The position numbers and the translations under genes were made by a program. Below are positions 58,607-63,391 of a DNA stretch of 64,000 nt, one piece after another (positions within the stretch are counted from its first letter, which is position 1; each line of letters opens with the position of its first letter). The stretch comes from Limnochorda sp. L945t. GTDB taxonomy: Bacteria > Bacillota > Limnochordia > Limnochordales > Geochordaceae. The stretch spans positions 310,001 to 374,000 of the forward strand of contig NZ_CP141615.1 in assembly GCF_035593305.1 (NCBI RefSeq), in the 5' to 3' direction. A model generated the notes under the pieces. The model worked only from the letters and a program-made list of their open reading frames with translations, ran no database searches and had not been told where the DNA came from.

Positions 58607-58770
58607 GTGTATCGCCCCCGTACGTCGAATCTCGCGCCCCCAGCTTACCCCCATCGCCCCCTCTGCGGAAGGGACAAACTCCCCGATCGGGACGGCGAGC
58701 GCGCGCGGCGGCTATTACAATGGGGAGGGGGACCCGATGAGTTGCGCGCAGGGGCTGGAGGGTGTCGAGG

Positions 58771-59337
58771 GTGACGGCGAGGCGTCAGGAGAAACTGGAG
58801 GCGCTCCGGCACGTGGCCATGCTCATGCGGCCCGATGGGCCGCTTCTCGTCCTCTTCGGGTTCCTGGCCGGCCGCATCGACCAGGTGGAGTTCGTGCGCA
58901 ACCTGGAGGGCGTCGCGGTGGCCGTCCAGCTGTCGCTGGACGGCCGGATCTGGCCCCGGGTGCCGTTCCGGGGACGGGTCCAGGAGGAGCCCATTTTGAA
59001 CCCCGTGGCCTTCGTCGACCTGGTGGCGCTCCGCGACGACGAGATCTACGTCCGGGTCGACTTCCCCTGGGGCCAGGAGCCCGAGTGGTACGCGAGGGTC
59101 GCACAGGACTCGGCCGTCGACCGCAAGGAGCGCCTCGCCGGGGCCATCGAGCGGATCCGCCAGCGGATCGACTTCGCACTGGACGTCTACCGGACGGCGC
59201 AGCCGCTCATCGCAGGCTCGAGCGAGGAGGAGCGCCGGAGGTTGCAGTTCGTGGTGCAGACGGCTCGCGACGAGATCCAGGCGCTCAGCCGCCAGCTCTC
59301 GGAGCTGGAGTCCGAGCTGAGCCGTCAGCAGCCCTGA
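58771..59337 (+). CDS. Conserved-looking hypothetical protein
   Basis: I do not recognise this 188-residue soluble protein. It opens with a basic stretch (TARRQEKLEALRHVAMLM), has a hydrophobic beta-like core with GRIDQVEFVRNLEGVAVAVQ and RVPFRGRVQEEPILNPVAFV, and ends in a long charged helix with heptad-like spacing (ARDEIQALSRQLSELESELS) that could form a coiled coil. No signal peptide or membrane segment is seen. GTG 58771 is favoured because GGAGG is 9 nt upstream; GTG 58762 abuts that site. Its last 53 nt overlap the convergent histidine-kinase gene. Confidence 0.7.
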   Translation: MTARRQEKLEALRHVAMLMRPDGPLLVLFGFLAGRIDQVEFVRNLEGVAVAVQLSLDGRIWPRVPFRGRVQEEPILNPVAFVDLVALRDDEIYVRVDFPWGQEPEWYARVAQDSAVDRKERLAGAIERIRQRIDFALDVYRTAQPLIAGSSEEERRRLQFVVQTARDEIQALSRQLSELESELSRQQP

Positions 59338-60661
59338 GGGGCAGGCGCACCCGGGCCGTCGTACCGTGGCCCGGGCGTGAGTCGAGCTCGATGGTGCCGC
59401 CGTGGGCGGCGGCGATGGCCCGGCTGATGGTCAGCCCCAGCCCGGTGCCGCCCTCGCCGCTCGGCGAGAGGCGCCGGTAAAACGGCTCGAAGGCGCGCTC
59501 GATCTCCTCCGGCGCCATGCCCCGGCCCCGGTCGGCGATCTCCAGGACGAGCTCGGGGCCCTGGCGGCGCGCTACGAGCGTCACGAGCGAGTCCGGCGGG
59601 CTCGCCTCGATCGCGTTCTTGAGAAGATTGGTCAACAGGCGGGCGACCGCGATGGGGTCGCAGGGGGCCTGCAGGCCCTCCTCCACGTCGGTCACGAGGG
59701 TGACCCCCGCCCGCTCGGCCAGGTGCCGCACGTCCTGGACGGCCTGGTCTGCGACGGGCGCGATGGGACAGTCGGGCCGGATGCTCACCCCCGCGCCCTG
59801 GTCGTAACGGGCCAGCGCCAGCAGCTGGTTGGCGAGGTCGGTGAGGCGGCGGGCCTGCACCAGGGCCCGCTCCAGCGCATCCCGGTAGGCTTCGGGGGTC
59901 TGGGCCGACCGGAGGGCCACCTCGAGGTCCGCCACCAGCGCGCCGAGCGGCGTACGAAGCTCGTGAGAGGCGTCGTCCACCAGCCGCTGCTGCGCCTCGA
60001 AGGCGCGTCGAAGGCGCGCCATCATCGTGTTGAACGTGGTGGCCAGCTCCCGCAGCGTGGCATCGCCGTCCGCCGGCGGCACCCGGACGCCCAGGGCCTG
60101 GGAGTCGATCTGGGGAGCCGAGGCCAGCTGCGCGGCGGCCTGGATCATCCTCTCCACCGGGGAAAAGGCCCGGCGCGCCGAGAGGAAGGCGACCCCGCTC
60201 ACGACCACGGTGCCGACCAGGCCGATGACCGCGAGCACCCCTCGCAGTGCCGACAAGGCCTCCGCCATCTCGTGCAACGAGACCTGGCCGACGATCCGGC
60301 TGGAGCCGGGGGCGTCGAGGGCCACGAGCACGTCGTCGCTACCCGGCCACAACCATCCGAGACTGCCGAGCTCCGGCCCGTCCGGCCCGCGGCGCAGCAC
60401 GTAGCGGTACTCTTCGTGCTCGTCGTACCTCCGGGCGAGCCGCTCTGCGAGGTGGGACTCGCGCTCGTCCTCGTGCTCCGGCGAAGCGGCGGGCAAGCCG
60501 AGGCGAGAGGCGAGCCGGGTGTCGACCTGCCGCCACAAGACCGAAGCGGCCGCCACGTAGAAGGCGCCCATGGCGAGGAGCATGACCAGCGTCAGTACGG
60601 CGGCGGTCGTGACGGCCAGGCGGACCGGGAAGTGGTCCCTCCACCACCCGGCCGGGCTCAT
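59285..60661 (-). CDS. Sensor histidine kinase (HAMP/HisKA type)
   Basis: A 458-residue two-component sensor. Two membrane helices (AVTTAAVLTLVMLLAMGAFY near 16-38 and LAVIGLVGTVVVSGVAFLSA near 143-162) flank an extracytoplasmic loop of about 100 residues rich in H, E and R (EHEDERESHLAERLARRYDE). A HAMP segment follows, then the H-box DDASHELRTPLGAL, the N-box NLLKNAIEAS, DRGRGMAPEEIERAFEPFYR and GEGGTGLGLTI. It overlaps the response regulator by 4 nt (ATGA). The signal is unknown, but the operon suggests a redox or metal cue. Confidence 0.93.
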   Translation of the reverse strand: MSPAGWWRDHFPVRLAVTTAAVLTLVMLLAMGAFYVAAASVLWRQVDTRLASRLGLPAASPEHEDERESHLAERLARRYDEHEEYRYVLRRGPDGPELGSLGWLWPGSDDVLVALDAPGSSRIVGQVSLHEMAEALSALRGVLAVIGLVGTVVVSGVAFLSARRAFSPVERMIQAAAQLASAPQIDSQALGVRVPPADGDATLRELATTFNTMMARLRRAFEAQQRLVDDASHELRTPLGALVADLEVALRSAQTPEAYRDALERALVQARRLTDLANQLLALARYDQGAGVSIRPDCPIAPVADQAVQDVRHLAERAGVTLVTDVEEGLQAPCDPIAVARLLTNLLKNAIEASPPDSLVTLVARRQGPELVLEIADRGRGMAPEEIERAFEPFYRRLSPSGEGGTGLGLTISRAIAAAHGGTIELDSRPGHGTTARVRLPLRAADGSARTPAPRAGG

Positions 60662-61365
60662 CGGGGATCGCCTCCCGGAGAGGACTCGAGCGACTGCTCC
60701 ACGGTGACCAGGTATCCCACGCCTCTGCGGTTGACCAGGCGCACGTGGCTACCGAGGGCCTCCAGCTTGCGGCGGATGTTCTTGATGTGGGACCAGACGG
60801 CCTCTTCGGAGGCGTCCCAAGGCTGTGGCCATGCGGCATCCTGCAGGGCTGCACTCGGCACCGGGGTCCCTCCCGCCTGCACCAGCGCCGCCAGCAGGTC
60901 GAACTCCCGCCGCGTCAGCAGCACCTGCCGGCTCCCCACCCTGGCTGCCACCGCCAGGGGGTCGAGCACCAGGTCTCCGTAGCGCAGCTGCTTCTCGCCG
61001 CCTCCCGAGGAGCGCCGCACCAGGGCTCGGATGCGGGCCAGGAGCTCCTCGAAGGCGAAGGGCTTGACCAGATAGTCGTCGGCCCCCGCGTCCAGCCCCC
61101 GGACCCGGTCGCTCACCCGGTCGAGGGCGGTGAGCATCAGCACGGGCGTACGGTTGCCCTCTCCCCTCAAGCGCGCCAGCACCTGGTCGCCCGACAGCCC
61201 GGGCAGCCTCCTGTCCAGCACGATCGCGTCGTACCTGCGATCCGCGGCGAAGAGCAGCGCCTCGTGGCCGTCGGCGGCCGCATCCACCTGGAATCCGGCC
61301 GTCTGGAGCCCTCGTTCCAGCGCGTCACGCATGGCCGGGTCATCCTCGATGACCAGCAGCCGCAC
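60658..61365 (-). CDS. OmpR/PhoB-family response regulator
   Basis: A 235-residue regulator. The receiver domain shows LLVIEDDPAMRDALERGLQT, the phospho-acceptor aspartate in AIVLDRRLPGLSGDQVLARL, MLTALDRVSDRVRGLDAGAD and DYLVKPFAFEELLARIRALV. The winged-helix domain has LLTRREFDLLAALVQAGGTP, IKNIRRKLEAL and VNRRGVGYLV. Start GTG 61365 has AGGAGGG 8 nt upstream; longer in-frame readings are rejected. It is cotranscribed with the kinase and overlaps the ferric-reductase-like gene by 26 nt, so this operon is a likely target. Confidence 0.94.
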   Translation of the reverse strand: MRLLVIEDDPAMRDALERGLQTAGFQVDAAADGHEALLFAADRRYDAIVLDRRLPGLSGDQVLARLRGEGNRTPVLMLTALDRVSDRVRGLDAGADDYLVKPFAFEELLARIRALVRRSSGGGEKQLRYGDLVLDPLAVAARVGSRQVLLTRREFDLLAALVQAGGTPVPSAALQDAAWPQPWDASEEAVWSHIKNIRRKLEALGSHVRLVNRRGVGYLVTVEQSLESSPGGDPR

Positions 61366-61939
61366 CCGCCGCGACCCTCCTCTCCTCCGGTGCCCTGTCT
61401 CCTGCCCTCTGCCAGCGCTCCGCGGCCACCGTGGCCACGGCCACCAGGGCACCCACGGCCAGCCGGAGCAGCGGTGGCCCCAGGTCGGTGCCGGCCATCA
61501 AGCCGTGCCCGACCGCCACGGCGTACATCACGTTGCCCCACCGGTGCACGGCACGCCACCACCGGTTGCCCCAACTCGTCCTCCCATCGAAGCTTATCAG
61601 GAGCACGCTGAGCGCATAAAGCGCCAGCACGCCGAGGCCGGTCCCAAACGGCCGGTACGGCGCCACGAACGGGACGAGCAGCGCCTGCCAGGAAAACGGC
61701 ACCTTCGGGTCGGAGCGCAGGATCAGGGCGTGGAACAACGCAAAGCCCCACGCGACGATGGAGAGCAGGCGGTGCCACGTGAAAGCGGCCGCCGAGGCCC
61801 GGGATCGCCGGGCGCGTGCCATCGCTCCCGCGTAAGCTGCCGCCACTGCGAGCGTGTAGAAGAGCAGCGAGGTGAGGCCCGCGGCCCGGGAGAGATACCA
61901 GGGGCTCCACCATGCGGCGCTCCAGGATTCAAGAGGCAT
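61340..61939 (-). CDS. Ferric-reductase-like transmembrane heme protein
   Basis: A 199-residue integral membrane protein with about five to six helices. Two helices carry spaced histidines suited to b-type heme: TWHRLLSIVAWGFALFHALI and RAVHRWGNVMYAVAVGHGLM. This is the pattern of the ferric-reductase-like transmembrane domain also found in MsrQ/YedZ. There is no cytoplasmic FAD/NAD domain, so electrons must come from quinones or a partner protein. It starts 11 nt inside apbE and ends 26 nt inside the response regulator, implying a single translational unit. Confidence 0.82.
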   Translation of the reverse strand: MPLESWSAAWWSPWYLSRAAGLTSLLFYTLAVAAAYAGAMARARRSRASAAAFTWHRLLSIVAWGFALFHALILRSDPKVPFSWQALLVPFVAPYRPFGTGLGVLALYALSVLLISFDGRTSWGNRWWRAVHRWGNVMYAVAVGHGLMAGTDLGPPLLRLAVGALVAVATVAAERWQRAGDRAPEERRVAAGAAAGHRG

Positions 61940-62870
61940 GGGCGAGCGACACCCCCCAGGTCAGGACGCGCCCGTCCCGTAACCGGACGAACGCCGAAGC
62001 GTGGGGCCATCGCTCCATGAGCGCACCGATCCGGCGGGAACCGGCCAGGATCAGCGCCTTCGCCAGCACCTCGGCGCGCAGCGCCCCGCTCTCCGCGACC
62101 GTCGCCGAGACGACATCGGTGCGGACCGGAGCGCCGGTGCCCGGGTCGATGAGGTGGTGGGCAGGGCCCAGGGGACCGACCCACCACCGGCGCAGCCCCG
62201 ACGTCGCGACGCCGCCCTGCCGGACCTCCAGGGCGATGGGGCTGCCGTCCACCTGCACGACCCAAGGGGGAGAGCCGGGGAGAGCACGGGCGGCGACGTC
62301 GCCGCCGGCGTCGACGAGCGCGGCCCCGAAGCGCTGCGCCAGCCAGGCCGCCGCCGAATCAGCGGCGAGCCCCTTGACGACGCCGCCGAGGTCGAGGGCC
62401 GCTCCCGGACGGATCCGCACGGCCCGGATCGCCCGGTCGAGCTCGAACGGAGGACGGCCGGCCGGGCGCGCCCCCGCCGGCGGCTCTGCCTCGTCGCCCG
62501 GCGGCAAGAGGCCGGCCGGGCCACCCAGAGCGTGCCAGTCCCGGTCGTAACCATAGCGGGCGAGGGCCGGGAGCACCCCGGCGTCCACGAGCCCCCCGGT
62601 GGCCTCGTACGCCCACTGGGCCGCCTCGAGCGCCCAGAAGAGCAACGGGGAGACCAGGCACCACTGCCCGGCACAGCCGGCCCGGTTGAGGCGGGAGAGC
62701 TCGCTATCCGGCCGGAAGCGGCTGAGCGCCCTCTCGATCTCTTCGAACCAGGCCCGCCGCTCGGCCAGCACGCGCCGCGCCGCGTCCTCCTTCCCGGAAG
62801 CCGGCCGCACCATCAGCGTGATGGTGGTCCCCATGGCGTCGAAGCTCTCACGAAGGGCGGCTGACGACAT
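61929..62870 (-). CDS. apbE: FAD:protein FMN transferase (ApbE family)
   Basis: ApbE enzymes attach FMN covalently to a threonine or serine of extracytoplasmic redox proteins. Motifs seen: FDAMGTTITLMVRPA at the start, SRLNRAG, EATGGLVDAGVLPAL, the flavin-binding LDLGGVVKGLAADSAA, LVDAGGDVAARA, HHLIDPGTGAPV and ALRAEVLAKALILAG near the metal site. The start is ATG 62870 (313 residues); upstream in-frame residues look untranslated. No signal peptide or lipobox is visible, unlike many relatives. No FMN-binding acceptor domain is encoded in the window. It overlaps genes on both sides. Confidence 0.88.
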   Translation of the reverse strand: MSSAALRESFDAMGTTITLMVRPASGKEDAARRVLAERRAWFEEIERALSRFRPDSELSRLNRAGCAGQWCLVSPLLFWALEAAQWAYEATGGLVDAGVLPALARYGYDRDWHALGGPAGLLPPGDEAEPPAGARPAGRPPFELDRAIRAVRIRPGAALDLGGVVKGLAADSAAAWLAQRFGAALVDAGGDVAARALPGSPPWVVQVDGSPIALEVRQGGVATSGLRRWWVGPLGPAHHLIDPGTGAPVRTDVVSATVAESGALRAEVLAKALILAGSRRIGALMERWPHASAFVRLRDGRVLTWGVSLAHAS

Positions 62871-63294
62871 CGGGCACCGCCCCCGGCTGCGCCAGGCGGA
62901 CTCCCGGCGCCTGCACGCTCGCGGAGGGGCGGCGGGAACCGTGCTCGTCCTTCCGCTCGTGCCCCTCCTCGTCATACTCGTGGCCCTCTTCCCCGTACCA
63001 CCCGTGCTCGGCGTACTCGTGGAAGTCGCCGTGCTCCCCGCCGTACCAGCTCCCGGACGGCGCCAGGCCTTCCGCGGCAGGAGGTTGCAGGGCGTCCGGG
63101 CGTGCGGCGCCGGCTACCGGGGGCGAGGAGGACGGCGAAGGCGCCTGTGCCGCGGAGGCGGGCGTTTGCTTCTGGCGGACGAGGCCTCCCATCACGCCCG
63201 TGAAGACGAGGATGCCGGCCGTGCCGGCCGCCCAGGGCCACCACCAGCGCCGGTTGCGCCTGGGCGGCGTGGGCCGGGTATCGGATCCAGTCAT
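62848..63294 (-). CDS. Membrane-anchored His/Glu/Tyr-rich protein of unknown function
   Basis: I do not recognise this 148-residue protein. It has a basic N-terminus and one membrane helix (PWAAGTAGILVFTGVMGGLV, about 20-42), then a linker rich in A, S and P, then a remarkable segment (WYGGEHGDFHEYAEHGWYGE and EGHEYDEEGHERKDEHG) with six histidines and many acids and tyrosines, suited to binding metal outside the membrane. ATG 63294 is preferred, 10 nt after AAAGGAG; ATG 63303 is too close. It heads the operon and overlaps apbE by 23 nt. It may be a metal-binding or electron-transfer accessory, by inference only. Confidence 0.7.
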   Translation of the reverse strand: MTGSDTRPTPPRRNRRWWWPWAAGTAGILVFTGVMGGLVRQKQTPASAAQAPSPSSSPPVAGAARPDALQPPAAEGLAPSGSWYGGEHGDFHEYAEHGWYGEEGHEYDEEGHERKDEHGSRRPSASVQAPGVRLAQPGAVPDVVSRPS

Positions 63295-63391
63295 GAGAGG
63301 CATTCTCCTTTCCTCGGCCCATCATGCCACCCTCACCTGGAGCCAACCTGGAGAACGCCGACCGCTCCTGCGGCCCGCCCACGCCGGCTCA

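Follow-up and report, generated by a model that had tools for sequence, protein, structure and literature searches.

A flavin-tag version of an MsrQ-like electron-transfer operon predicted in Limnochorda sp. L945t

The operon and its conservation

The window analysed here, a stretch of 64,000 nucleotides (nt) from Limnochorda sp. L945t (contig NZ_CP141615.1), contains at 59285-63294 five minus-strand genes which encode a small membrane-anchored protein (the tether), an ApbE-type flavin transferase, a ferric-reductase-domain (FRD) protein and a two-component system. Their coordinates confirm the overlaps of 23, 11, 26 and 4 nt listed in an earlier note on this DNA. The features, in the direction of transcription, are:

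62848-63294, minus strand: tether gene, the operon head, 148 amino acids (aa) from 63294; backed by coding bias and, in relatives, by the [ST]xxS end and the positive-inside topology that they share
62851-62871, minus strand: candidate flavinylation tag, codons for D-V-V-S-R-P-S, with Dxx[ST]xxS spacing and nearly all within the apbE overlap
61929-62870, minus strand: apbE; Pfam ApbE match, predicted fold and conserved residues
61340-61939, minus strand: FRD gene, 199 aa; structure model and invariant histidines
60658-61365, minus strand: response regulator gene with GTG start; Pfam Response_reg and Trans_reg_C
59285-60661, minus strand: sensor histidine kinase gene; Pfam HAMP/HisKA/HATPase_c

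Third-position bias for guanine and cytosine is strong in all five genes, the small head gene included (0.83-0.91), and the tether frame is the only stop-free frame on its strand in that region. The tether gene has a further in-frame ATG at 63303.

The FRD protein matches the Pfam family Ferric_reduct (PF01794) with E=3e-5 and 24.5 bits, below the cut-off of 28. Its predicted structure shows a predicted local distance difference test score (pLDDT) of 91.9, and the best solved matches are SpNOX (Z 15.2), cytochrome b561 (Z 14.0) and STEAP4 (Z 13.3); His56, His70, His132 and His145 are invariant in 58 homologues. The structure prediction, together with these four histidines, confirmed the assignment. 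The protein is predicted to be a stand-alone MsrQ-like membrane protein carrying two b hemes, and according to Pfam the window protein has no reductase domain of the type that binds reduced nicotinamide adenine dinucleotide (phosphate) and flavin adenine dinucleotide, NAD(P)H/FAD.

The earlier note had asked for the same neighbourhood in other genomes, and the order tether-apbE-FRD-response regulator-kinase was found in G002 and G004, as well as tether-apbE-FRD in G010, all three genomes belonging to the taxonomic order of the window genome. Among the other close genomes, some have no second ApbE of this type and some have no ApbE at all; FRD is absent from those sampled, so the distribution of the operon is patchy. 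Beyond these relatives, an ApbE profile search of named genomes found apbE-FRD pairs in three phyla: Bacillota (Paenibacillus, Cohnella, Brevibacillus and Alicyclobacillus), Chloroflexota and Actinomycetota. FRD adjoins apbE in 70/120 ApbE loci, which is not a frequency because the loci were mostly retrieved via the window ApbE or FRD. A two-component system lies near FRD in 26/45 FRD-bearing ApbE loci versus 2/15 ApbE loci without FRD, which supports the earlier suggestion of a regulated extracytoplasmic electron-transfer unit. In G002 (locus L032), the operon adjoins a probable heme o synthase and SCO/PCuAC-like and cupredoxin-like proteins, all assigned by eye.

The tether and its C-terminal tag

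The tether consists of a basic N-terminus, one transmembrane helix, a Pro/Ala/Ser linker, an H/E/D/Y-rich segment and the C-terminal sequence DVVSRPS. The linker region is disordered and acidic/His-rich, and no Pfam domain was matched; among 50 tethers, one matches any Pfam family (PG_binding_1). Across relatives the head proteins are scarcely alignable, with a mean column identity of 8%; nonetheless, their last residues agree. Lysine plus arginine residues around the helix average 4.2 before and 1.2 after it, and 45/52 tethers have more of them before the helix; this positive-inside bias predicts an N-inside, C-outside topology. The His/Glu/Tyr-rich exterior that had been noted for the operon head holds in the window lineage, where acidic and histidine residues are dense; however, at least 12 D/E/H in 25 residues are found in only 6/52 tethers, and such residues are scarce in most of them. 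A conserved His-rich exterior was therefore rejected as the defining feature.

The tether of each locus was taken as the nearest upstream open reading frame (ORF) with a transmembrane helix next to an FRD-linked apbE, picked blind to its C-terminus. An [ST]xxS end was found in 38/52 discovery loci, or 45/52 allowing one extra residue, against 2.1% for background ORFs and 2.6% for positions within the same proteins (p~1e-48); the chance rate of such an end is about 2-4%. Among held-out loci, which were not used for finding the rule and are Bacillota only, with many near-relatives, 67/70 proteins end in [ST]xxS (43/46 distinct 8-residue tails), and the three exceptions seem to be ORFs in the wrong frame. 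In total, the tag is present in more than 100 related loci of several phyla, with a combined tail logo of [ST]-R-[ST]-[R/G]-[A/R/V]-S-COOH. The tag was also considered as an artefact of the apbE overlap or of ATGA coupling; this was rejected because its serine is encoded by five different codons, all three stop codons follow it and it is kept where the tether and apbE genes do not overlap.

This end resembles the published ApbE motif Dxx[ST]GA[ST], in which, according to PMC12052999, FMN (flavin mononucleotide) is attached to the last Ser/Thr and the minimal length is seven residues; artificial flavin tags reviewed there perform best at a terminus. Several relatives' tethers carry exact [ST]GA[ST] sequences (TGAS, SGAS) at the C-terminus and others show TTGASG near the end, while the window tail DVVSRPS and the G002 tail DARSRPS have D, S and S in the motif positions but differ from it at G and A. 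The earlier note proposed to look for FMN-acceptor motifs in the His-rich family, and a candidate for such a motif lies at its C-terminus. The literature search, confined to open-access papers, turned up no account of domainless tethers that end in a flavin tag, so their novelty is provisional. The further ApbE substrates treated in passages of PMC11334425 and PMC12052999 are all folded domains or extensions thereof, and a tether ending in STRTS (WP_110045672.1) is labelled as a hypothetical protein in RefSeq.

One metagenome-assembled genome of Solirubrobacteraceae encodes three anchored proteins in a row with T-R-x-S(G)-type motifs (L098, 4845-5983, plus strand), and one of them carries the motif three or four times. 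These could possibly be multi-flavin tethers without folded domains.

The ApbE subfamily and the flavin acceptor

The window ApbE matches its Pfam family (PF02424) with E=1e-43 and 150 bits against a cut-off of 25.6, its model has a pLDDT of 93.1 and its profile matches solved ApbE structures with E down to 3e-64. The catalytic Ser and His are present, whereas the catalytic Asp is replaced by Glu and the Thr of DxxxT by Lys, and no signal peptide was detected. The same replacements are found in 58/70 (Asp to Glu) and 55/70 (Thr to Lys) FRD-linked ApbEs, while other ApbEs keep the Asp in 43/50 and the Thr in 39/50 cases. A hydrophobic N-terminal extension is shown by 4/70 FRD-linked ApbEs, the four of which look like over-extended frames, and by 42/50 of the others. 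On a phylogenetic tree, the FRD-linked ApbEs are strongly clustered, with 6 label changes versus 38.5 after shuffling, although not in one clade; judged from their sequences, they form a distinct group.

The operon falls within the MsrQ-like flavinylation clusters already described (PMC8238504), so the earlier description of a system of unrecognised type was partly wrong; the predicted acceptor, though, is of a different kind. We interpret the operon as an MsrQ-like system for electron transfer across the membrane that works with a flavin tag, ApbE putting FMN on the terminal Ser of the tether, and assign to this reading a probability of roughly three in four. Using FAD as donor, the signal-peptide-less ApbE would attach FMN to the final Ser of DVVSRPS; this would probably happen in the cytosol, before export of the tail. 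The FRD protein, with its two predicted hemes, would pass electrons outward across the membrane. On the outer face, the covalent FMN on the one-helix anchor would then swing to and fro, taking electrons from the outer heme and delivering them to an extracytoplasmic acceptor.

A search for a canonical acceptor among the operon's own genes gave none: no gene of the operon encodes an FMN_bind domain (PF04205), and the sole match in the genome is RnfG of the Rnf cluster. The earlier statement that the usual acceptor domain is missing is therefore right for the domain itself; however, the acceptor is most likely the operon head, through its C-terminal tag. RnfG, as the genome's one FMN_bind protein, could be the target if the operon ApbE served a distant acceptor, in which case the tether, rich in H/E/D/Y, could bind metal or act as a scaffold, and its C-terminus would have a different function. 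We regard this as unlikely, since a canonical ApbE belonging to the Rnf cluster is encoded within a few kb of it and the C-terminal motif of the tethers has the ApbE-motif spacing, including the exact TGAS and SGAS cases. Furthermore, in nine near-complete pair-bearing genomes all ApbEs are FRD-linked, and neither FMN_bind nor NqrB/RnfD was found above the cut-off (further acceptor types, for example DUF2271 or DUF3570, were outside this search).

NqrB and RnfD, described as ApbE targets in PMC11334425, show that integral membrane proteins can also receive the flavin, and the FRD protein or another membrane protein could be flavinylated while the [ST]xxS end serves the complex as a signal for binding or sorting. 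In 58 FRD homologues, however, no Ser or Thr is invariant or nearly so, and FRD was rejected as flavin acceptor on this ground. The canonical or repeated tags of some tethers would also be unexpected for a simple sorting signal, and this explanation seems to us quite improbable.

The side of the membrane on which the flavin arm lies is addressed by the topology of the tether. FRD-linked ApbEs without signal peptides and a window FRD protein without a reductase domain would fit an arm on the cytosolic side, acting as the electron entry for FRD in place of the missing NAD(P)H/FAD domain. The strong positive-inside bias places the tail outside, and one tagged tether has a peptidoglycan-binding domain, which is an exterior feature; hence we consider a cytosolic arm very improbable. 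The tether-position proteins with such a domain are long and come from Alicyclobacillus: that of L068 (5279-5995) ends in DIITRGS, and that of L066, where the domain is a RefSeq annotation, ends without the tag.

Several points weigh against flavinylation of the tether as proposed. The case for it is drawn from sequence comparison, and the genome does hold another FMN_bind protein, although one that has an ApbE of its own. At the canonical G and A positions the window tag reads R and P, and in a canonical system, according to PMC12052999, G-to-A and A-to-V changes halve flavinylation and Thr is a better acceptor than Ser; the diverged ApbE would therefore have to tolerate such a tag with a Ser acceptor. 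Finally, the ApbE looks cytosolic and the tail extracytoplasmic, so that the tail would need export after modification, and this is the weakest step of the scheme.

In a wider sense, we give slightly better than even odds to the view that natural flavoproteins of a widespread kind have gone unrecognised. These would be disordered membrane tethers with a C-terminal [ST]xxS tag as their sole cofactor site; ApbEs without signal peptides would load them with FMN in the cytosol, and after export they would serve as swinging arms for FRD hemes. If so, some of the orphan ApbEs without known substrate would find their acceptors in such tethers, and for part of that gap the C-terminal tags offer a concrete, testable candidate; covalent flavin would require no folded domain, and flavinylation in the cytosol would remove the need for FAD export. 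Existing flavin-tagging tools could moreover gain an orthogonal counterpart in the diverged ApbE/tag pairs.

Known systems, metals and neighbouring genes

The MsrQ-like flavinylation clusters (Meheust et al. 2021, PMC8238504) share with this operon an apbE beside a PF01794-type six-helix, two-heme protein and a presumed outward electron transfer. Unlike the operon, they typically, though not universally, include a gene with an FMN-binding domain, whose place would be taken here by the domainless tagged tether; moreover, the ApbE described here has no signal peptide, and a signal-peptide filter would therefore miss the operon. A further likeness in tagging is found in the engineered flavin-tag method, where a short terminal Dxx[ST]GA[ST] peptide suffices for ApbE (PMC12052999), whereas the tag described here is natural, is degenerate at G and A and goes together with a diverged ApbE subfamily.

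In the periplasmic methionine sulfoxide reductase MsrPQ, an MsrQ-type heme membrane protein also feeds an extracytoplasmic partner; however, the operon has no msrP gene and the partner would be the predicted FMN tether. PplA of Listeria is the surface-anchored FMN protein of flavin-based extracellular electron transfer. Its ApbE-type enzyme, FmnB, works outside the cytosol according to PMC9973259, in contrast to the ApbE of this operon, which looks cytosolic and has a predicted acceptor without a folded domain.

A metal ion is a plausible electron acceptor and inducer, although the whole case is circumstantial. Three observations point to a metal: the tether and the outer loop of the kinase are acidic/His-rich in the window lineage; several Chloroflexota and Actinomycetota loci have separate D/H-rich anchored proteins adjoining the tether; and the regulators are of metal type, the OmpR-type response regulator and the kinase both being nearest to heavy-metal subfamilies, below the cut-off.

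Some loci show further anchored proteins. L075, L094, L095, L097 and L106 have a second one with a D/H/E-rich C-terminus upstream of the tether, and likewise L242 (2402-2701). The protein preceding the tether looks PepSY-like by eye in L064, L089 and L092 (Chloroflexota), and on a Streptomyces plasmid (L241, 1365-2650) two anchored proteins upstream of apbE contain Met-rich stretches (GMGMDGMDM) that hint at copper binding.

Upstream of the operon, a SpoVR-family gene on the same strand has its stop about 90 bases before the head gene. On the other side, an uncharacterised 191-aa gene (58762-59337, plus strand) is convergent with the kinase gene and overlaps its 3' end by 53 nt, and beyond it a fumarase gene is found downstream.
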